DNA of 34,350 nt, taken from the NCBI GenBank assembly GCA_016783825.1, contig JADHVV010000025.1:1-34350 (forward strand). The letters are read 5' to 3'. Each line of letters opens with the position of its first letter. The stretch's first letter is position 1. Positions 21,332-33,508 of the stretch are shown one piece after another. The notes beneath the pieces are model-generated. The model searched no databases and had not been told where the DNA came from. It saw only the letters and a program-made list of their open reading frames with translations. Made by a program: the position numbers and the translations under genes. This DNA comes from Candidatus Zhuqueibacterota bacterium. GTDB taxonomy: Bacteria; Zhuqueibacterota; Zhuqueibacteria; Thermofontimicrobiales; Thermofontimicrobiaceae.

Positions 21332-21997
21332 TTATTTAAACAACCCCGCAAAAAAATCCAAAATAGATTCCACAATAGTACGATCCTTGCCAGAGGGAAG
21401 TTTAACATCATCCGTCTCATCCAAATAGATGATGCCGTCGCCATCTGTATCCAATGAATCATCAAATGCAGGTATGTCTGAACCCGGCGCAGTAACCGAG
21501 GCTAAACCTTGTTTTAACCGATCCCAGTCAAATAACTGACCCGGATCAGGTTTGCGGGGCGTAATTTCTTCGTGTCCGCGAACCAGTTCGATGGGAATAT
21601 TAAACTGCTCCATTTTTTGTTTCACTAACCAAATGAGCGCGTCATACTGAAAATCCGAATAACGAAATAACTGACCATCGCCCTGCAATTCAATTCCGAT
21701 GCTGCGGTTGTTTAAATTTTCTCTTAACACACCGTTTATCTCCCAACTGCTTCTGCCGGCATGCCAGGCAGTGTGTTCATCTTTCACCATTTGAATGATC
21801 GGGCGCAAATCCCGGGCAATAATATATTGTGCTGAAACCTGCCGCGTTGAACGCCAAACATCCGGTTTAAACCAGCTAATGGTTCCCTGCAAGCTGTTGA
21901 TTCTTCCATTATTGCTGCCGGTGTGATGTATTATGATCATTTCGTTGGCAATTTTGTCGGTATGAAAGAATTGGCTTTCTATCCATTCTATTTGCAT
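21332..21997 (-). CDS. N-acetylmuramoyl-L-alanine amidase (Amidase_2 family) with C-terminal EF-hand-like loop
   Basis: The 221-residue protein has the zinc amidase fold shared with AmpD and PGRPs. MIIIHHTGSN carries the first zinc His (H24/H25), AWHAGRSSWEING is the substrate loop, IGIELQGDG follows, and GHEEITPRKPDPG supplies H142 and D151. It cleaves the bond between N-acetylmuramic acid and L-alanine. No signal peptide is present, so it may recycle cytoplasmic muropeptides like AmpD. The start at 21997 is set by GGAGG just upstream; the open frame extends 40 codons further, but that part is the inverted repeat at 22025-22129. After the domain a 12-residue EF-hand-type loop DTDGDGIIYLDE (183-194) and a short hydrophobic tail appear, unusual for AmpD. 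Confidence 0.9.
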   Translation of the reverse strand: MQIEWIESQFFHTDKIANEMIIIHHTGSNNGRINSLQGTISWFKPDVWRSTRQVSAQYIIARDLRPIIQMVKDEHTAWHAGRSSWEINGVLRENLNNRSIGIELQGDGQLFRYSDFQYDALIWLVKQKMEQFNIPIELVRGHEEITPRKPDPGQLFDWDRLKQGLASVTAPGSDIPAFDDSLDTDGDGIIYLDETDDVKLPSGKDRTIVESILDFFAGLFK

Positions 21998-22024
21998 GTT
22001 TTCCTCCAATTGTTTGGTGTATTT

Positions 22025-22129
22025 GTGAGTGGTGAGTGGTGGAGTAGTGAGTGGTAGAGTAGTAAGTACAATCAATGCTTCAATTTTACTCACCACTAAC
22101 CACTCACGACTCACCACCTACTACTCACC
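22025..22129. repeat. GTGAGTGG-word inverted repeat overlapping the AIR-synthase stop codon
   Basis: The left arm at 22025-22068 (GTGAGTGGTGAGTGGTGGAG...) and right arm at 22087-22129 (...CACCACTAACCACTCACGAC...) are degenerate complements around an 18-base loop. The stop codon of the upstream minus-strand gene (22121-22123) lies in the right arm, and the amidase ribosome-binding site begins only some 18 bases past the left arm. The structure therefore sits inside a probable operon. Bases 22091-22107 are complementary to 20622-20638. Confidence 0.8.
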
Positions 22130-23146
22130 AAATAATTTAGTAATCTCATCTTGATAGAATTCAGGAAAATCAATTTCATCATGTTCCGAAATAAGTTTAA
22201 TCCCATATCCCGGTTCCATAATTTTCCCAATTTTTTTAGCTAAAATATTCTTCTCTTTCAAACTCTCTATTATTTTGTGGCTTGATTTTCTTTCAGTGAC
22301 AATTAATAAGGCGCCAGAGGCAATAACACCAAAAATATTTATATCGTACTGATCACATAAAAGCTTTGCTTCAGGTATTTTGGGAATCTCTTTTTCGAAT
22401 ATTTTCATACCACATCCGGCTGCATTTGCCAATTCATGAAGACCCATTGCTAATCCGCCTTCTGTGGGATCGTGCATTGCTTTTACACCGCCTGTTTTAA
22501 CCGCTATTTGAGCCTCTCTTAAAATACTGATCCCCGGTTGATAAATAAAATTTTTACATTTTTCCACCAAATCTGTGGAATAAATTTCTGTTAATTTATC
22601 TTCCTTTTCACGAGCGATAATTGAAGTTGCTTCAATGGCGATTCCTTTGGTTAATAAAATATCATCACCCGGCTGCGCATTTTCATTTTTTATCAGCAAG
22701 TCTTTTTTTACTTCACCTAACATCTGACCAATAAGGATTGGACGATTAATGCCATAAGTTACTTCGGTATGTCCGCCGCAAAAAGAGATTTTTAATTGGC
22801 AGCAGACTTGATTCACCTGGGAGAAAATATCTTCCACCATTTCTTGGGTTGTTGCTGCCTCAGGAAGCAATAGTGTGCCCAAAAACCATTTTGGCACACC
22901 ACCCATGCAGGCGATATCATTGGCGTTGATATTGATGGCATAATAGCCGATGTCATCGGTAACAAATGTTATGGGATCAGTTTTGGCGATTAAATATTGA
23001 TCACCAAAATTAATCACGGCAGCATCCACGCCAACTTTAGGACCAATTATTATCGAATCGTCACCGGTTGTATATTTCTTTATCATTTCACCCAGAAATT
23101 GCGGCGACATTTTTCCCAACGGCAGAAAGTCAGTTTTTTCTGTCAT
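22121..23146 (-). CDS. AIR synthase-related (PurM/HypE-like) ATP-binding protein
   Basis: The 341-residue protein belongs to the PurM superfamily (AIR synthase, HypE, SelD, ThiL). The N-terminal domain has VGVDAAVINFGDQYLIAKTDP and the Asp-rich dimer strand NINANDIACMGG. The second half has AQPGDDILLTKGIAIEATSI and GVKAMHDPTEGGLAMGLHELA, the conserved nucleotide/dimer motif. The closest shape is HypE, but the C-terminal PRIC-type cysteine end of HypE is missing (it ends ITKLFGE), and there is no Cys/Sec loop of SelD. It therefore represents the uncharacterised AIR-synthase-related group that presumably phosphorylates a small metabolite. Its ATG overlaps the stop of the TIGR04076-type gene by four bases (ATGA), so the two are translationally coupled. 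Confidence 0.82.
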   Translation of the reverse strand: MTEKTDFLPLGKMSPQFLGEMIKKYTTGDDSIIIGPKVGVDAAVINFGDQYLIAKTDPITFVTDDIGYYAININANDIACMGGVPKWFLGTLLLPEAATTQEMVEDIFSQVNQVCCQLKISFCGGHTEVTYGINRPILIGQMLGEVKKDLLIKNENAQPGDDILLTKGIAIEATSIIAREKEDKLTEIYSTDLVEKCKNFIYQPGISILREAQIAVKTGGVKAMHDPTEGGLAMGLHELANAAGCGMKIFEKEIPKIPEAKLLCDQYDINIFGVIASGALLIVTERKSSHKIIESLKEKNILAKKIGKIMEPGYGIKLISEHDEIDFPEFYQDEITKLFGE

Positions 23147-24063: not shown

Positions 24064-27000
24064 ATGAAGATATATTTTAAACATCTCCAAATTGTTCAAA
24101 TATCTCTATATTCAATTCTTTTGCTATTTGAACCTTCTTTTTGCCAGAATATCCAATTACCAAATGTTGATACAGTAAATTTAATTGGTGGAAATATTGT
24201 TTATGTGAATATCAATGCATCAGGTGCTAATAATGGCAATTCCTGGAGCGATGCCTTTACAAATATAGAAGATGGAATAGAAAAAGCAAATTCATCAAAC
24301 GCCCAGGTTTGGGTTGCAAAAGGAACATATCGTGAAAATCTTGTTATGCAAAATAGCGTTGGGATTTATGGCGGTTTCAATGGAAACGAGACATCATTAA
24401 ATGACAGGAATCCTTCTCAAAATATAACAACCATCGATGGTCAGAGACGTACGAGAACGATCCTTTGTTATGGTTCCAACACAGTTGACGGTCTTACTAT
24501 TAAAAACGGCTATGTGCCTGAAGGTAACGGTGATGTTTTACAAAACCGAGGCGGTGGTATTCTTTTTTACATGGCAAATGGTGCAGTTAAAAATAATTTT
24601 ATTTCTGATAATTCAGCCGGCTGGGGTGGCGGTATTTATGTCGAAGGAAATGTAAACAATCCCGGTTATGTTTTAATTGAATACAATATTATTACCAGGA
24701 ATACAGGTACTTCTTGTGCCGGCGGTATAGAAATTGATCACTCGCGTGCAACTGTAAGATTTAATACGATTGTTGACAATATTGGGCACGGACTTGAAAT
24801 CCCGACCCACCCTCCTATCACTTATGGAGAATTTCATAGCAATATTGTTGATGGTAATTTATTCAACAATCATCCGCGTTGGAACGGATACCGTCCAAAA
24901 GGCATGGATGTTTGGGCTTACGCCAGGGCTTGTACGGATTATACTTTTATCGGAGAAATTTGGGATTACGATTCAAGATGGGGTTCGCCATTTGATCATC
25001 CAACTAATATTTATGGAGATCATGAAAACAAGGATCCTCGATTTATCAATCGTCAGGGTCGCGATTTTCGTCTTCAATCAAATTCTCCCTGTAAAGGCAC
25101 TGGAAAGCCAAGTGGTGGCAGTGCAACGAACATGGGGGCGATTCAAGGTGGCAGTACAACTTCCGAAACAGTATCAACTCCGAACCAGCCATCCGGGCCT
25201 TCCAGCGGTACAATAAATCAAAATTTAAGTTATAGTACCGGTGGTTCATCGAGCAGTTCCGGGCACACAGTTGAGTATCAATTCAACTGGGGAGATGGTA
25301 ATTATTCGGGATGGGGATCTTCATCGCAGAGTCATAGTTACGCTAATTCCGGTAATTACTCAATTCAAGCACGGGCGCGCTGTATAACGCATACGAATAT
25401 TATGTCAGGTTGGTCTGCAAGTAGAAGTGTATCAATATCAGCTGATAGCTATACCTTATCCATTTCGATTTATCCATCCGGGAAAGGCACAGTATCAAGA
25501 AATCCCAATAAGAATTCATACAATTATGATGAGACTGTGTGGCTAACAGCCACTCCTTCATCCAATTATTTATTCGACCAATGGGGTGGTGCTTTAAGCG
25601 GAAACACCAATCCCAGAAAAATAATAATGAATGACAATAAAAGTGTTACCGCATATTTCAAGCAAATACCCGAAGAGGTTTCCACACCTAACAAGCCGTC
25701 GGGACCTGCCAGCAGCAAAATAGATTTGAGCGTAACTTTTACTACAAGCGGTTCAATATGTAATTATGGACATGCGGTTGAATATCAATTTAGCTGGGGA
25801 GCAAGCGATCAATCAGAGTGGGGATTTTCTTCACAATCAACTAACTACTCAACTGTTGGAACATTTACAATAAGCGCCCGGGCACGATGTAAAAACGATA
25901 CGAACATTCTTTCTGATTGGTCTTCAGGGAAAAGCTTTTCAACCTCAGGTTATAAGTTAAATATTTCGATAAATCCTTCCGCTGCCGGAACGGTGTCAAT
26001 AAATCCCCTAAAATATCAATTCAATTCAGGTGAAGTTGTACAATTATTTGCGAATCCATCATCGGATTATTTGTTCGATAAATGGAGCGGTGATTTAAGT
26101 GGAAGCGATAACCAGGTGTTATTAATTATGAATAACGACAAAAAAGTTATCGCTCACTTCAAACAAATACCAGAAAAAATATCAACGCCAAACAAATCCA
26201 CAGGCGCTTCCGATGGCAAAGTAGATCAGAACTTAACTTTTACTACTGACGGATCGTCAAGCAATTTGGGTCATTCAGTTGAATACCAATTTAGTTGGGG
26301 AGATAGTACAGAATCAAGTTGGAATGGAAATAGCAGCAGCCACGCTTACACTAATCCTGGAACTTACCAGGTAAGAACTCAAGCAAGATGTATTGATCAT
26401 CCAAATATAGTTTCCGATCTTTCAGAAAGCCAGTCAATTACCATTACGCCAAATTTTTATTCGATCTCCGGTAAAGCCTGCTACTATTCAGGAGAGCAAC
26501 CCATTCAGAATGTAACAATAGCAGTATCAGGTGATAAAGACACAAATCAGCAAACTGACACAAACGGTGAATATACTCTCCAACTTGAATGTGATAAAAA
26601 TTTTAAAATGACGCCCATAAAGGCAAAAGGTATGAATATTGGATATTTAGACATTACCATGTATGACGCCGTGTTAGCTGCCCGGTATTCCATGGGTTTG
26701 GAACAGTTAGATGATTACCAGCAAATCGCTGCTGATGTGGACAGGGATGGAAATGTCAGCCTTTTTGATGCGGTTTTAATCGCCCGTTATACAATTGAAT
26801 TACCATCACCTACCGACTCATCCTGCGTAAGTGAATGGACTTTTTCTCCATCGGAAAGATTCTACCAGAATCTCAATTCAAATTTTTCCGATCAGAATTT
26901 TTTTGGTATTATTTTGGGCAATATTCATGGTAGCTGGCAACCGCCCGGATCTATAAAAATAAACCGGTTAAAAACTTTAACTTATCAATATTTGGATAAA

Positions 27001-27654
27001 ATAAAAATTGAAAAAAAAAGAGTTATCCTTCCATTAATTATCGATCCGGAGCAAAATGTTCAATCAATTGAAATTGAGCTAATGTATGATTCAAACGCAC
27101 TAAATTTTCAGAAAATTGAAAAGACAAAATTATCTGAAAAATTCCAATTATTTCATAATAACTGTAAAGGTCAGTTGAGAGTAGGTATGTTTTCCGTTAC
27201 TCCCTCAAATGGAGGTGGTGTATTACTAAAACTTATTTTTTCAACAAATCCGTCGTTCAACAAAAAGGTGTTTTTTCATCTAAAAGAATTTAAAATAAAC
27301 AAAAAAATTAATATGCAAGTAAAAATGGAAATCATTTTAAATAAAAAAGTTTTTCCAATCACTAATTATAAATTGAGTCAGTGCTATCCGAATCCATTTA
27401 ATAATTCAACTCAATTCAATCTCGATCTGCCTGAAAGTGGTTTTATTTTCGCTGTGATTTATAATATAAAAGGTCAGGAAATTATCAAATTAATTGAAAA
27501 TAATTTTCCTGCGGGGCATCATATTCTGAAATGGAATGGGACAGATGAAGCCGGAACATTTGTAAACAGTGGCATCTATCTATTAAAATTAGTATTTAAT
27601 GGAAAATCAGGGAGCAAAGAATCTAGCATCAGGCGTATCATGTTAATGAAATAA
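24064..27654 (+). CDS. Giant secreted multidomain protein: beta-helix, PKD-like/InlB repeats, dockerin- and cohesin-like modules, T9SS sorting domain
   Basis: The 1196-residue protein begins with a Sec signal peptide ending near FCQ (about residue 28). Then come a right-handed parallel beta-helix (about 44-360; YVNINASGANNGNSWSDAF is the usual start). Next are PKD-like unit 1 (about 369-460, FNWGDGNYSGW), InlB-type B-repeat 1 (about 463-537), PKD-like 2 (about 539-628), InlB-type 2 (about 630-704) and PKD-like 3 (about 705-797) with no third InlB unit. A carboxypeptidase-regulatory-like fold (about 798-860) precedes a dockerin-like pair whose second loop ADVDRDGNVSLFDAVLIARY has full calcium ligands. 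A cohesin-like beta domain follows (about 984-1080). It closes with a Por/type IX sorting domain (about 1102-1196; LSQCYPNPFNNSTQFNL and a SSIRRIMLMK end). It is probably exported by the type IX system and held on the surface, perhaps binding polysaccharide; no catalytic residues are certain. Confidence 0.9.
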   Translation: MKIYFKHLQIVQISLYSILLLFEPSFCQNIQLPNVDTVNLIGGNIVYVNINASGANNGNSWSDAFTNIEDGIEKANSSNAQVWVAKGTYRENLVMQNSVGIYGGFNGNETSLNDRNPSQNITTIDGQRRTRTILCYGSNTVDGLTIKNGYVPEGNGDVLQNRGGGILFYMANGAVKNNFISDNSAGWGGGIYVEGNVNNPGYVLIEYNIITRNTGTSCAGGIEIDHSRATVRFNTIVDNIGHGLEIPTHPPITYGEFHSNIVDGNLFNNHPRWNGYRPKGMDVWAYARACTDYTFIGEIWDYDSRWGSPFDHPTNIYGDHENKDPRFINRQGRDFRLQSNSPCKGTGKPSGGSATNMGAIQGGSTTSETVSTPNQPSGPSSGTINQNLSYSTGGSSSSSGHTVEYQFNWGDGNYSGWGSSSQSHSYANSGNYSIQARARCITHTNIMSGWSASRSVSISADSYTLSISIYPSGKGTVSRNPNKNSYNYDETVWLTATPSSNYLFDQWGGALSGNTNPRKIIMNDNKSVTAYFKQIPEEVSTPNKPSGPASSKIDLSVTFTTSGSICNYGHAVEYQFSWGASDQSEWGFSSQSTNYSTVGTFTISARARCKNDTNILSDWSSGKSFSTSGYKLNISINPSAAGTVSINPLKYQFNSGEVVQLFANPSSDYLFDKWSGDLSGSDNQVLLIMNNDKKVIAHFKQIPEKISTPNKSTGASDGKVDQNLTFTTDGSSSNLGHSVEYQFSWGDSTESSWNGNSSSHAYTNPGTYQVRTQARCIDHPNIVSDLSESQSITITPNFYSISGKACYYSGEQPIQNVTIAVSGDKDTNQQTDTNGEYTLQLECDKNFKMTPIKAKGMNIGYLDITMYDAVLAARYSMGLEQLDDYQQIAADVDRDGNVSLFDAVLIARYTIELPSPTDSSCVSEWTFSPSERFYQNLNSNFSDQNFFGIILGNIHGSWQPPGSIKINRLKTLTYQYLDKIKIEKKRVILPLIIDPEQNVQSIEIELMYDSNALNFQKIEKTKLSEKFQLFHNNCKGQLRVGMFSVTPSNGGGVLLKLIFSTNPSFNKKVFFHLKEFKINKKINMQVKMEIILNKKVFPITNYKLSQCYPNPFNNSTQFNLDLPESGFIFAVIYNIKGQEIIKLIENNFPAGHHILKWNGTDEAGTFVNSGIYLLKLVFNGKSGSKESSIRRIMLMK

Positions 27655-28215: not shown

Positions 28216-28269
28216 ATGCCCCAGCGATTTTGTATGAGTATTATCAATTTTATAAAATTATCAAAGTAA
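28216..28269 (+). CDS. Short leader ORF upstream of ABC permease
   Basis: ATG at 28216 has a good GAGGA six bases upstream and reads 17 codons (MPQRFCMSIINFIKLSK) to TAA at 28267-28269, eleven bases before the permease ATG at 28281. The permease itself has no ribosome-binding site, so translation of this leader could bring ribosomes to it. It may be a regulatory leader, a coupling peptide or a relic of a deleted upstream gene such as the missing ATPase. There is no homology evidence. Confidence 0.35.
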   Translation: MPQRFCMSIINFIKLSK

Positions 28270-28280
28270 AAAACATAACA

Positions 28281-29222
28281 ATGGATAAAAATTTATACGC
28301 CCATTATTTTCGGAAACTTGCGTCCTTATTAAGTTTACTGATCATTGTTATTCTTCTGTCAATTCTCTCCCCATATTTTTTTACAACAGAAAATCTTTTT
28401 TCAATCGGATTACAAATGGCAGTAATTGCCATCATGTCCATCGGACAAATGTGGATCATTATTTCCGGTGGAATTGATCTTTCAGTCGGTTCTGTGCTTG
28501 CCTTATCCGGTGTTGTCTCAACCCTGCTTATTTCCAGTGGATTTGATATCCTGACTGCCTCATTGGTCGGAATAATGGTTGGCTCGCTGTGCGGAGTCAT
28601 TAGTGGTTTTCTTATTTCAGCGGGAAAGCTTCCACCTTTTATTGCAACATTAGGAATGATGGGTATCGCCAGGGGTATGGCGCTGATTTTAACAAAAGGC
28701 GTTCCGGTTTTTGGCTTGCCCGAATCCTTTTCTGTAATTAGCAACGGCAGAATAGCAAACCTGGTTCCTATTCCAATACTCATTACTTTATTATTAGCTC
28801 TAATAGGACACATTATTCTGACTCGCACACCGTTTGGTAGATACACTTATGCAATCGGCAGTAATTTTGAAGCTGCCAGACTTTCCGGTATTCGCACATC
28901 ACGCACACTGATTTATATTTATACACTGGGTGGCATGTTGTCCGGGCTTGCAGGTATTATTTTAGCGTCCAGGCTTAGCACAGGTCAACCTACAGCCGGC
29001 ACCGGTTATGAACTTGATGTGATAGCTGCCTGCGTAATTGGAGGCGCCAGTTTAAGCGGCGGCGCTGGCACAATTTGGGGCGCTATTCTTGGCGCTCTTT
29101 TAATCGGGGTGCTGCGAAACGGATGTAACCTTATGGATATTTCAGCATTTTGGCAACAAGTAGCCATTGGCGCGCTTATTGTTATTGCAGTTTTTATTGA
29201 TCAATATCAGAAGAACAGGTAA
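28281..29222 (+). CDS. Sugar ABC transporter permease (RbsC/XylH family)
   Basis: The 313-residue integral membrane protein has about eight to nine hydrophobic segments. Hallmarks of the ribose/xylose/galactose permease family (BPD_transp_2) are SPYFFTTENLFSIGLQMAV, the GGIDLSVGSVLALSGVV motif after the second or third helix, LPPFIATLGMMGIARG, and GRYTYAIGSNFEAARLSGI, the cytoplasmic loop that couples to the ATPase. It would form a homodimeric pore in the inner membrane. The ATG at 28281 gives the standard N-terminus; a TTG 17 codons upstream is the alternative. A binding lipoprotein gene follows, but no RbsA-type ATPase gene is nearby. The stop codon overlaps the left arm of an inverted repeat. 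Confidence 0.9.
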   Translation: MDKNLYAHYFRKLASLLSLLIIVILLSILSPYFFTTENLFSIGLQMAVIAIMSIGQMWIIISGGIDLSVGSVLALSGVVSTLLISSGFDILTASLVGIMVGSLCGVISGFLISAGKLPPFIATLGMMGIARGMALILTKGVPVFGLPESFSVISNGRIANLVPIPILITLLLALIGHIILTRTPFGRYTYAIGSNFEAARLSGIRTSRTLIYIYTLGGMLSGLAGIILASRLSTGQPTAGTGYELDVIAACVIGGASLSGGAGTIWGAILGALLIGVLRNGCNLMDISAFWQQVAIGALIVIAVFIDQYQKNR

Positions 29223-29336
29223 AGGTAAAAGAACAGGTTAAGGTCAAGGTCAAGAAATCATCACAAAATATACTCTTATTTCAATTTTGGAAAATCTTTT
29301 CCTTTACCTATACCTATACCTTTTCCTTTACCTTTT
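29216..29336. repeat. GGTAAAGG-word inverted repeat overlapping permease stop
   Basis: The left arm at 29216-29252 consists of AGGTAAAGGTAAAAG and AGGTTAAGGTCAAGGTC words. The right arm at about 29299-29336 is a degenerate complement (CCTTTACCTATACCTATACC then TTTTCCTTTACC). The permease stop codon TAA (29220-29222) lies in the left arm. The element separates permease and binding-protein genes of one transporter and may set their relative expression. Confidence 0.7.
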
Positions 29337-29375
29337 CAAAAATCTTCACCTAATTTTTTACACGGAGGAAAAACA

Positions 29376-30323
29376 ATGTACAAACGATTTTTTATTCTTT
29401 TTGTAATTACTATCTTATTATTCCAAGTAGGATGCTCAAACCAATCCACACAAACACAAAAAAGGATTCTCGTTTCGCCTAAAGGACTCGTGCTTTCTTT
29501 CTGGGTAACTGTCAAAGCTGGTGCAGATTCTGCGGGAAAGGAATTTAATGCAAAAATTATCTGGAAAGGACCTAACCAGGAAACAGATATTGCAGGACAA
29601 ATTGCAATTGTAGAAGATTACATTAACAAAGGGATAGACGCGATTGTTATTGCTGCTTGCGATGCGCAAGGTCTTATTCCGGTATTGAAAAATGCAAATA
29701 ATAAAAACATCCCTATAATCACAATTGATTCGGGAATTGAATCTGACCTGCCGCGCAGCTTTATCGCAACAGACAATACCGTTGCTGCACATAAAGCCGC
29801 ACAAGCATTGGCAAAAATGATTAACGAAGAGGGAAAAGTTGCCTGTATTCCATTTATTCCCGGGGCTGCAACTTCAATATGGCGGGAGAAAGGATTTGTG
29901 GAAGAAATAAAAAAATATCCCAATATTGAACTTCTCCCCATCCGCTATTCTCAGAGTGACGTGGCTATAGGAATGGCTGTAGTAGAAGACATTTTAACTG
30001 CACATCCGGATCTAAAAGGTATATTTGCAGCTAACGAATCAGGGACAATCGGGACTATTCAAGCATTAAAGACAAAGAATAAAATTGGTAAAGTAAAAGT
30101 GATTGGTTTTGATGCAGCGCCAAACGAGATAAAAGCATTAAAAGCCGGTGAAATAGATGGTTTGATTGTACAGGATCCTTTCAAAATGGGCTACGAGGGA
30201 GTAAAAGCAGCAATTAAATCTATGCAAAACGAACCCATACCAAAAAGAATCGATACCGGTGTTTATGTTGTAACTAAGGATAATTTATCCCAACCTGAAA
30301 TTCAACAAATAATCAATCATTGA
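29376..30323 (+). CDS. Sugar-binding lipoprotein of ABC importer (RbsB-like)
   Basis: The 315-residue protein has a lipoprotein signal peptide with lipobox FQVGC (C20) and the periplasmic binding protein type 1 fold (Peripla_BP_4). GADSAGKEFNAKIIWKGP, IDAIVIAACDAQGLIPVL and NIPIITIDSGIESDLPRSFIATDN mark the first lobe and hinge. GKVKVIGFDAAPNEIKALKAGEIDGLIVQDPFKMGYEG marks the second lobe. Such proteins bind ribose, xylose or related sugars and deliver them to an RbsC-type permease. A strong GGAGG precedes the ATG. It is probably co-transcribed with the permease, separated by the inverted repeat. Ligand identity is not readable from the sequence. Confidence 0.92.
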   Translation: MYKRFFILFVITILLFQVGCSNQSTQTQKRILVSPKGLVLSFWVTVKAGADSAGKEFNAKIIWKGPNQETDIAGQIAIVEDYINKGIDAIVIAACDAQGLIPVLKNANNKNIPIITIDSGIESDLPRSFIATDNTVAAHKAAQALAKMINEEGKVACIPFIPGAATSIWREKGFVEEIKKYPNIELLPIRYSQSDVAIGMAVVEDILTAHPDLKGIFAANESGTIGTIQALKTKNKIGKVKVIGFDAAPNEIKALKAGEIDGLIVQDPFKMGYEGVKAAIKSMQNEPIPKRIDTGVYVVTKDNLSQPEIQQIINH

Positions 30324-30437: not shown

Positions 30438-30806
30438 ATGACCCACAAAGATTTGGAATACTTTAAAAAACTTCTTTTGAAAAAAAGAGACGAAATTTTG
30501 CATGAGCTCGGATTCATTAAGGAGTCATCAAAAAATCAAAATAAGGAAACTTCAGGAACTGATTCCACATATTCTATTCACATGGCTGATCACGGTACTG
30601 ATGAAGAGCAGAGAGAAAAAGCATACTACCACGCATCAAGAGAAAACAAGTATTTACTTTATTTGGAAGATGCTTTGACAAGAATCGAAGAGGGCTCTTA
30701 TGGAATGTGTCTCGGCTGTGAGCAAGAGATACCAAAAGAAAGATTAAAAGCAGTACCGCATACCCAATTATGTGTTCCATGCAAAATGAAAGAAAAACAA
30801 GCCTGA
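30438..30806 (+). CDS. TraR/DksA family zinc-finger transcription factor
   Basis: The 122-residue protein has the DksA/TraR architecture. An N-terminal coiled-coil helix (MTHKDLEYFKKLLLKKRDEI) is followed by an acidic middle and a second helix. The C-terminal C4 zinc finger is CLGCEQEIPKERLKAVPHTQ followed by LCVPC (C91, C94, C112, C115). These proteins enter the secondary channel of RNA polymerase and alter initiation, often with ppGpp. The coiled-coil tip, where DksA has a DxxDxA motif, here reads ADHGTDEEQRE, a related acidic tip with Asp residues. It has its own promoter and a strong terminator. The ATG is preceded by AGAAGGA. Confidence 0.92.
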   Translation: MTHKDLEYFKKLLLKKRDEILHELGFIKESSKNQNKETSGTDSTYSIHMADHGTDEEQREKAYYHASRENKYLLYLEDALTRIEEGSYGMCLGCEQEIPKERLKAVPHTQLCVPCKMKEKQA

Positions 30807-31306: not shown

Positions 31307-33508
31307 TTATTTTTTTTCTCGCTTCATTTTTTTTCTCAATGAAATGGGCACGTTAAAAAAGAGATCGAAGATCCAGTGTTCCAATAAAGCGCCGCGTTCT
31401 CCGAAAACCGGAATAATGTGAACAATGCTTGTCGCCCATCTGCCAGCCATTAAGCGGGATAGCGCAGGAAATTTTGCCACCATTTGAATGGGAAATCCCA
31501 AGTATCCAACATAATGCCAGAACGAGATCAATGCTGCAATCCAGTAATTTTTTATATCTCTCTCTTTTATCATAAGGTATATTACATAAGTCCCCCTGAC
31601 TAATGAGCCCGGAGAAATCGGTGTTGCCTGAAATGCTGCTAATACTATTCCAGCATATAAAAGACCTTCTGCCCATGTTTTTCCAAACGCAATCATAGCA
31701 TAAATAGCTGCAACCAATGAAATTACTTGCGTGATAGGCAAAGTTGCCACATGAACTGCAACGCATTTTAAATATTTTTGAATGAACGGATCTTTAATAT
31801 TATCCCGAATATAATCAGCCTCGACTTCTGACAACATTCCTTCATCATGTCCGGCATTTACATTTTCTAATAACCATTGCTCCCTGAATTCTGCATCTCT
31901 ATAAAATCGAACCGGGTATGTTACGGCAAATTTGAAAGCTTCCCAGGCGAATTTTCCATCAGTGAGAAAACGAAACCATTTTGGAGGCAGCCAACTAATT
32001 AAAAATCTTTGCCGCCAGAAAGAGAATGGTTTGTTTAATAATAATAATACTCTTTCTTCGGTCACTCTCCCATCGCGGTACCAGTCAATTAATGTAAGCG
32101 CCTGCTTTGCTTTAAGCACTCTTCCAAAATAACCTTTTGTTGAGAACAAACTCTTGATATGGCGCGAGTAATTATCATTTCCCCACAGCCTTCTAAAAAA
32201 TCGACCTAAAAAAGGAATCAAGCCGAGCAGGTAAAATAAAATAAATTTAAAAACAGATGAATTAAAAGATTCGCTATGTTTCTCATCTACCAATCCTTTA
32301 CATTTCCATCCTTTAATGATGCCCGCTCTCACTGATTTTCGCAACTTCTTTTTATAGATTAATTTAATCCAGTGGTGCGTTAAATCAGGCAGAGATTCCC
32401 GATATTGTGGATCTCTTACTTTTAATTCTTCAATTACAGGTTTCAGATCAATGAATTCCTGTTCATATTTTTCAATGAATTCATCTAATTTTTTATAATT
32501 AGCCCGATCAAATTGAACGAGCTTGCCGCGGAACAATCCTTTAATGATCAACTTAAAATCAGCAGGACTCATCGGCAAAAAAGGTAACAGCGCCAGTCCG
32601 GCTCTGAAATCGATAGCAGTCACACCATCATAGTTGTTTTTGGAAAGCTGTGTCCGTTTAAGCGCATTTGGCTGACTTTTCATAGTGGACCATTCATATT
32701 GTCGCGCTAATTCCGGGGCGCCCATATCATGCAGCAATTTGACAAGATCAGCCATGAATTTTCTTTTTGTAAGAAATTCAGCTGATGTAATAGACCCGTC
32801 GTCAGGAATTTCTTCAAATTTTTTCCAATTTTTTCGTTTAAAAATTTCATCATCTATCTCGAATTTCCAATTTCGTCCGGTGATCCATTCATTGACCTCT
32901 CCGAAACTATCCATTGTATTATCATAAAAGGTCGCATAAGTATTAACGACAGCATCTTCACTATCCAGATAAATTTTTGCAGCACGACGAATGAGTTTCT
33001 GCCATAGCACACCAACCCTGGCAGCAGAATAATGCGTTTGAGCAGCAAAAGGTCCCTGGTATGCAAGCCAATAAATTAAATTTCTAAAAGAATGCGAGAA
33101 GTTTGATGGAGGAATTAATATCTTGATCGCATAAACATTGCCAACTTTGAGATCAGAAAAAGCCATCGAAGAATTCATCTGCTCAATTTCAACTAATTTT
33201 ACACGATAAACCTGTCCCGCAAATCCACCACCAACAAATTTTTCTATTTCTAATGTTGCAGTTGCTTTTTCATCAGGGCAAATCGCTGTTAAATTGTAGT
33301 GAAGCAGATCGCCAGTTTCATAACGTGATGGTGGATATGACCTGATTAAATTCGCCTTGTCCACCTCCTGGCGCAGCTTATCACATACTTCTAATGAATA
33401 TGGTAAATCAAATTCGCGCTGGTTTTTGGTGTCTTGTTTTTCAGCTTCACTACTTTTTTTAGTTTCATTTATTTTTACAGTTAGTTTTTCTTTCTCGGTA
33501 ATCCCCAT
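31307..33508 (-). CDS. Large protein with kinase-like N-terminal domain and multi-pass membrane C-terminal domain
   Basis: I do not recognise the family of this 733-residue product. An acidic/basic tail (1-35) leads into a segment that looks like an atypical protein kinase. It has a glycine-rich loop FVGGGFAGQVYRVK (91-104) and an alpha-C/beta-3 lysine in VYAIKIL (K129). Further on are a helical insert, GEVNEWITGRNW (203-214, possible hinge), VKLLHDMGAPEL (256-267, position of an HRD-like loop) and GVTAIDFRAGLALLP (295-309, position of a DFG-like Asp300). The C-terminal half is rich in aromatic and basic residues. It has hydrophobic segments at about 418-436, 584-608, 613-632 and 655-676, and a short basic tail. 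Thus it is probably a membrane-bound pseudokinase or kinase. It is flanked by convergent and tandem gaps and has no obvious operon partner. The ATG at 33508 has AGGGAAATT upstream. Confidence 0.75.
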   Translation of the reverse strand: MGITEKEKLTVKINETKKSSEAEKQDTKNQREFDLPYSLEVCDKLRQEVDKANLIRSYPPSRYETGDLLHYNLTAICPDEKATATLEIEKFVGGGFAGQVYRVKLVEIEQMNSSMAFSDLKVGNVYAIKILIPPSNFSHSFRNLIYWLAYQGPFAAQTHYSAARVGVLWQKLIRRAAKIYLDSEDAVVNTYATFYDNTMDSFGEVNEWITGRNWKFEIDDEIFKRKNWKKFEEIPDDGSITSAEFLTKRKFMADLVKLLHDMGAPELARQYEWSTMKSQPNALKRTQLSKNNYDGVTAIDFRAGLALLPFLPMSPADFKLIIKGLFRGKLVQFDRANYKKLDEFIEKYEQEFIDLKPVIEELKVRDPQYRESLPDLTHHWIKLIYKKKLRKSVRAGIIKGWKCKGLVDEKHSESFNSSVFKFILFYLLGLIPFLGRFFRRLWGNDNYSRHIKSLFSTKGYFGRVLKAKQALTLIDWYRDGRVTEERVLLLLNKPFSFWRQRFLISWLPPKWFRFLTDGKFAWEAFKFAVTYPVRFYRDAEFREQWLLENVNAGHDEGMLSEVEADYIRDNIKDPFIQKYLKCVAVHVATLPITQVISLVAAIYAMIAFGKTWAEGLLYAGIVLAAFQATPISPGSLVRGTYVIYLMIKERDIKNYWIAALISFWHYVGYLGFPIQMVAKFPALSRLMAGRWATSIVHIIPVFGERGALLEHWIFDLFFNVPISLRKKMKREKK

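Follow-up and report, generated by a model that had tools for sequence, protein, structure and literature searches.

The window, as we call the whole stretch of 34,350 nucleotides analysed here, carries on its minus strand a reading frame (31307-33508) that runs uninterrupted from an ATG start to a stop and encodes 733 amino acids, with an AAGGGA-like, plausible ribosome site just 5′ of the ATG. This frame, which a preliminary description made from the letters of the DNA had listed at the same positions, is real and lies on the minus strand; its own genome holds one copy of the gene. The features of the locus are given below.

30438-30806, plus strand: DksA/YteA-like zinc-finger protein, whose gene converges on the kinase-like gene, with synteny in L116/L002
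31307..33508, minus strand: whole reading frame of 733 aa, kinase-like plus helical/membrane domain, conserved in 43 homologues
32474..33337, minus strand: kinase-like domain, residues about 58-345 (AlphaFold model of 53-405; best 50 Foldseek PDB matches are protein kinases)
33206..33235, minus strand: glycine-rich loop VGGGFAGQVY (92-101), which fits GxGxxGxV; 93-101 invariant in 43/43
33122..33133, minus strand: YAIK (126-129) with K129 as candidate beta-3 ATP lysine; A127 and K129 invariant in 43/43
32858..32899, minus strand: hinge-like segment EVNEWITGRNWKFE (204-217), after strand 201-207; E204, W208, G211, R212, W214 and E217 invariant
32726..32731, minus strand: 'HD' (260-261) of the preliminary description, not the catalytic loop; D261 variable among homologues
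32660..32713, minus strand: catalytic-loop equivalent ELARQYEWSTMKSQPNAL (266-283); N281 invariant, M276 at the HRD-Asp position
32597..32617, minus strand: DFG-equivalent AIDFRAG (298-304) with D300 as candidate metal ligand; D300 invariant in 52/52 aligned rows, divergent ones included
31790..32218, minus strand: helical middle region (431-573), all-helical in the model and moderately conserved
31310..31789, minus strand: C-terminal membrane domain (574-733) with hydrophobic segments; 26 of 127 positions of 574-700 invariant

Scans of the 733-residue protein against Pfam, NCBIfam and PADLOC did not return any credible match, and PDB sequences gave chance matches alone, whether searched with this protein by itself or with a profile of 15 sequences. 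Fifteen family members scanned against Pfam likewise matched no family. The preliminary description knew no named family with such an order of motifs, a statement that holds for Pfam, NCBIfam and PDB sequence families. Weak matches to DUF1722, DarT and Ktr were dropped, being either not common to the homologues or not significant. No relative of the protein was found among the viral contigs and plasmids searched, and a text search of the literature did not find the motifs of the family in papers.

Full-length or nearly full-length homologues (43 in number, 42-69% identical) were present in KSB1-type, Kiritimatiellota, Cloacimonadota and Acidobacteriota genomes, the rows labelled 'KSB1' being those of the window's phylum, and a related-locus search of genome records yielded 16 loci from candidate division KSB1, Kiritimatiellota, Cloacimonadota and Acidobacteriota. 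A cultured Kiritimatiellota carrier is Pontiella sulfatireligans (strain F21, locus L011). Whole-genome searches detected the gene in 15 of the 82 genomes of the window's phylum and in 15/118 genomes of the phylum of the Cloacimonadota locus; it occurs in 8/195 genomes of the phylum of the Pontiella locus, two of the eight belonging to the degenerate branch described below, and in 4/199 of that of the Acidobacteriota locus, one of the four being of the sister branch. In the relatives L023, L042 and L063/L065/L067 the reading frame of this gene is split or carries an in-frame stop, which could represent assembly errors or pseudogenes. In the phylogenetic tree, which is unrooted, the Cloacimonadota formed one group (support 100/99) and the rows of the window's phylum were split into several places, so that the distribution appears patchy and gene transfer between phyla likely. 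At least four little-studied bacterial phyla have this strongly conserved family, which is undescribed, without a name and absent from Pfam and NCBIfam.

Ninety-four positions are invariant across the 43 homologues. They include G93-G-G-F-A-G-Q-V-Y101, A127 and K129 in the N-terminal part; E266, A268-R-Q-Y-E-W273, T275, K277 and Q279-P-N281 in the region of the catalytic loop; and D300-F-R302 and G304 in the DFG region, where the motif reads A-I/V-D-F-R-A-G. Both N281 and D300 are present in 52/52 aligned rows. The positions assigned previously were correct for GGGFAGQV (93-100), for the AIK that ends at Lys129 and for the Asp of IDF (Asp300). Non-conservation of the glycine loop and Lys129 had been named there as evidence against a kinase; both are invariant in the orthologues. 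K129, N281 and D300, three of the four residues whose conservation had been proposed as a check, are invariant, but the fourth, D261, is not: H260 is nearly invariant, whereas position 261 holds D, E, R, Q, K, L or N, and the 'HD' at 260-261 had to be given up as catalytic loop. The 'unusual spacing' of the motifs is explained in part by a variable insertion after the hinge (residues 221-241, where conservation within the domain is lowest) and is in part an artefact of the misplaced catalytic loop.

The catalytic-loop equivalent corresponds to the near-invariant stretch A-R-Q-Y-E-W-x-T-x-K-S-Q-P-N281 (268-281), which contains no Asp. When the HRD-Asp position was located by counting back from N281, it fell on residue 276, which in 46 aligned rows is Met (24), Cys (13), Leu (4), Trp (2), Ala (1), Ser (1) or Ile (1); with a one-residue insertion in the loop it would fall on T275, which is invariant and also non-acidic. 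Since the interval between K129 and E204 has no invariant acidic residue among the 43 homologues, the alpha-C glutamate seems to be missing as well. The equivalents of the catalytic loop and the activation segment are the most conserved parts (mean conservation 0.87 and 0.84), and E272, D317 and D334 are invariant among the 43 homologues.

AlphaFold2 was run on the full protein (15 sequences; mean pLDDT 72.5, pTM 0.68) and on residues 53-405 (16 sequences; mean pLDDT 72.9, pTM 0.76). The model has strands at 68-75, 81-94, 99-110 and 125-130 followed by helices 136-150 and 160-181, then strands 190-196 and 201-207, helix 243-262, and strands 282-284 and 295-297 just before D300. In the two predicted models the order of elements is kinase-like, namely beta1-3, alphaC, beta4-5, hinge, alphaE, beta7-8 and D300. 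For each of the two, the best 50 matches of a Foldseek search against the PDB were all protein kinases, GSK3-beta, HIPK3, VRK and MPS1 being among the matches listed, with best E values of 4.8e-3 (full model, GSK3-beta) and 3.4e-4 (domain model) and a probability of 1.00 for most. However, TM-scores of the domain model against PDB kinases were 0.22-0.38 with an rmsd of 8-17 Å, and in the full model two stretches near the catalytic loop and the activation segment, 273-280 and 303-318, had a confidence below 50. Given TM-scores of about 0.3 and these low-confidence stretches, support for the C-lobe is partial at most; it is good for the predicted N-lobe and for the chain as far as D300. Structure prediction, one of the checks suggested in the preliminary description, bore out the kinase element order but not clearly a second lobe. 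Its central proposal, a kinase-like domain fused to a membrane domain, stands on conservation, the order of strands and helices and the Foldseek results, and more weakly on a profile comparison with 16 Pkinase sequences of related genomes (P 2.3e-4), which is confined to the glycine loop and VAIK.

The low TM-scores, together with the absence of a significant sequence match to kinase profiles, are what would be expected if there were no kinship with kinases and a glycine-rich loop had arisen by chance in an unrelated membrane-protein family. We regard this as quite unlikely. The pattern G-x-G-x-x-G-x-V plus A-x-K arose in 32 of 200,000 shuffles of the protein and the full order of motifs through N and D in 0/200,000; because the pattern was formulated after the sequence had been seen, the invariance of the motifs across phyla is the stronger argument. 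Moreover, both structure searches list kinases alone, and a sister branch (see below) has the same motifs.

With the Hanks-type Ser/Thr kinases (PF00069), to whose group the best structural matches listed belong, the family shares the GxGxxGxV loop, AxK, the catalytic-loop Asn and the DF motif, in the same order. The glycine loop and the VAIK Lys of PF00069 are present in 43/43 homologues, and its catalytic-loop Asn and DFG Asp (as DFRAG) in 52/52 rows. By contrast with those kinases, the family lacks the HRD Asp (M/C/L/W/A/S/I in 46 rows) and an alpha-C acid, and it has a post-hinge insertion and a C-terminal membrane domain. Pkinase (PF00069) gave no match at E≤10 for the window protein or at E≤1 for 15 members.

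UbiB/ABC1/COQ8 proteins, named as a candidate in the preliminary description, are likewise atypical kinases with membrane segments, and are defined by KxGQ, ExD, HxDxHPxN and an Ala-rich loop (PMC4718504). A divergent UbiB/ABC1 protein (PF03109), regulating quinone or isoprenoid lipids, would agree with a kinase-like domain that precedes membrane segments and with the GQV after the loop, which resembles the GQVH of UbiB. However, KxGQ, HxD and the ExD of the beta3-alphaC region are missing, the loop is Gly- and not Ala-rich, a profile comparison gave P 0.018 over 21 columns, and relatives carry genuine ABC1 genes separately; we therefore rejected this assignment, which is largely refuted and extremely improbable.

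SelO, an AMPylating pseudokinase with the motifs WHLK, Hgvmntdn and DYG, keeps the Lys, the Asn and the DFG Asp and lacks the HRD Asp (PMC12599244 Table 1). Its residue pattern, K, N and D without the HRD Asp, is the closest to that of the family here, although no sequence relation between the two was found. SelO is not known to be a membrane protein. A SelO-like AMPylase transfers AMP from ATP bound in a flipped orientation; what the family has in common with it is the residue pattern only. A kinase fold with a degraded catalytic motif is joined to transmembrane segments in ActPs2, ActPs3/MviN, GLW and EssB/YukC, and the bacterial pseudokinase families covered by the review have lost the ATP Lys and/or the DFG Asp or, in the case of CP1, are without membrane segments (PMC12599244). 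In those four groups the ATP Lys, the DFG Asp or both are missing or replaced; the present family keeps the two residues invariant and has lost the HRD Asp alone, apparently together with the alpha-C Glu. A pseudokinase has been defined as a kinase fold without shown activity in which the Lys, the HRD Asp or the DFG Asp is lost (PMC12599244); one of these three, the HRD Asp, is lost throughout, and under this published definition the protein is a candidate pseudokinase.

The C-terminal half carries the motifs QxTPxSPGSLxRG, GYLxFPxQM and IPVFGExGALLEH. Hydrophobicity peaks near residues 426, 599, 628 and 665, in agreement with the about four hydrophobic segments reported previously, and the main segments lie within 574-733. 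None of the 50 matches listed for the full-length Foldseek search (down to E 0.096) was a fold match to this half.

A divergent Acidobacteriota protein (L064) led to the relatives L109, L113 and L114, with which it forms a sister branch. The proteins of this branch are shorter (about 545-686 aa) and combine a kinase-like and a membrane domain in the same way. Their profile aligned with that of the main family over 492 columns (P 3.8e-18), and the relation was also found for the kinase part alone (P 4.1e-7) and for the membrane part alone (P 4.8e-13). The motifs of this branch are GxGR[SA], Lys, N-[FL]-L and [IV]-D-[LAF]-E-S-G; it is likewise without the HRD Asp and, in addition, without E272. 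Neither L064 nor L109, the two members scanned, matched a Pfam family.

The degenerate branch (L058/L059 of genome G259 and L060/L147 of G366) has lost the glycine loop and K129 and keeps the membrane domain at 46-48% identity. Retention of the membrane domain while the kinase half decays suggests that the former has a job of its own. In L058, N281 and D300 remain, and E272, K277 and P280 changed together with the loss of the glycine loop and K129. This joint loss links the residues to one function and suggests that loop 272-280 shares its ATP-related function with the glycine loop and K129.

A branch with decayed ATP-handling residues and a persisting membrane domain would suit a non-catalytic pseudokinase, in which predicted ATP binding would act as a switch, structural or regulatory, for gating or assembling the membrane domain. 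The missing HRD Asp also speaks for such a role, as do EssB/YukC and MviN, membrane pseudokinases with scaffold-type roles (PMC12599244). Those proteins, however, lost all three motifs, whereas in the present family Lys, Asn and Asp do not vary from phylum to phylum, a constancy that suggests ATP chemistry is being used; we hold the non-catalytic role to be a tentative possibility, somewhat short of probable.

The neighbourhoods of the kinase-like gene differ among phyla. In Cloacimonadota it lies 5-34 bases after a divergent polysaccharide deacetylase gene in 11 of the 12 loci with flanks (three deacetylases confirmed by Pfam PF04748, the others by blastp clustering), and holA mostly comes next. 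In two Acidobacteriota loci its start lies within the last 4 bases of another gene, starch-synthase-like in L003 and ManC, itself preceded by phosphomannomutase, in L142. The degenerate-branch gene of L147 lies 13 bases after a SIS-CBS sugar isomerase gene. In Kiritimatiellales, the gene and a riboflavin-type cluster, so named from sequence starts only, are transcribed away from each other. The window's copy is a lone gene in convergent orientation to the DksA/YteA-like gene, an arrangement also seen in the relative L116/L002. The neighbourhood survey proposed earlier thus found glycan genes beside it in Cloacimonadota and Acidobacteriota, but none directly adjoining in the window and Kiritimatiellales. 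Co-occurrence with polysaccharide deacetylase was dropped as functional evidence because PF04748 occurs in 76/82 genomes of the window's phylum and is uninformative. The family is possibly linked to envelope glycans.

Adjoining glycan genes in some phyla would fit an active atypical kinase acting on lipid, sugar or protein, in which the HRD Asp has been relocated and the base is E272, D317 or D334, or is dispensed with. The invariance of these three acids and a conservation of the catalytic loop and activation segment beyond that expected of a dead domain argue in the same direction. Nevertheless, no member has an acid at the HRD position, E272 is not shared by the sister branch and no alpha-C acid is conserved, which leaves the atypical kinase doubtful.

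We consider it reasonably probable that the protein is the founding member of an unnamed, membrane-anchored kinase-fold family with putative ATP binding and probably no ordinary Ser/Thr phosphorylation. Between the alternatives offered by the preliminary description, a lipid or protein kinase or a pseudokinase, an ordinary kinase is disfavoured by the absence of the HRD Asp, and the best reading is a membrane-anchored, predicted ATP-binding atypical or pseudokinase family. Residues ~58-345 would form a cytoplasmic kinase-like domain, in which the glycine loop, K129, N281 and D300 may bind Mg-ATP. Ordinary Ser/Thr phosphorylation is probably not carried out, since the HRD aspartate is absent in both the family and its sister branch. 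Kinase-fold proteins without the catalytic aspartate include AMPylases, glutamylases and scaffolds. The domain could perform a non-standard ATP-dependent transfer from the ARQYEWxTxKSQPN loop, with E272 and K277 as candidate replacements, or it could be an ATP-dependent switch controlling the fused membrane domain; the likeliest place of action, tentatively, would be the inner membrane, in glycan or lipid metabolism of the cell envelope. Rather unlikely is the bolder version, a new branch of the kinase superfamily that lacked the HRD Asp from its origin, with ARQYEWxTxKSQPN as a new active site for non-phosphorylation ATP transfer to an envelope glycan or lipid carrier, the transferred group presumably being, for example, AMP or another activated group. 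Across four phyla the family keeps the residues predicted to hold ATP together with a near-invariant replacement loop, and it is fused to a conserved membrane domain; K129, E272, K277, N281 and D300 offer a residue set for mutational tests, with P. sulfatireligans F21 as cultured host.

Rfam and tRNA scans of the window gave no match. Elsewhere in the window, a 1196-aa secreted protein (24064-27654, plus strand) has matches to InlB-like B-repeat, PKD, dockerin-like and type IX secretion sorting-tail models, and 28230-30323 (plus strand) encodes a ribose-type ABC permease and a periplasmic binding protein. An AIR-synthase-family protein (22121-23146, minus strand), whose scores to HypE, SelD and ThiL are all below NCBIfam cut-offs, is adjoined by an AmpD-like amidase gene at 21332-22117.
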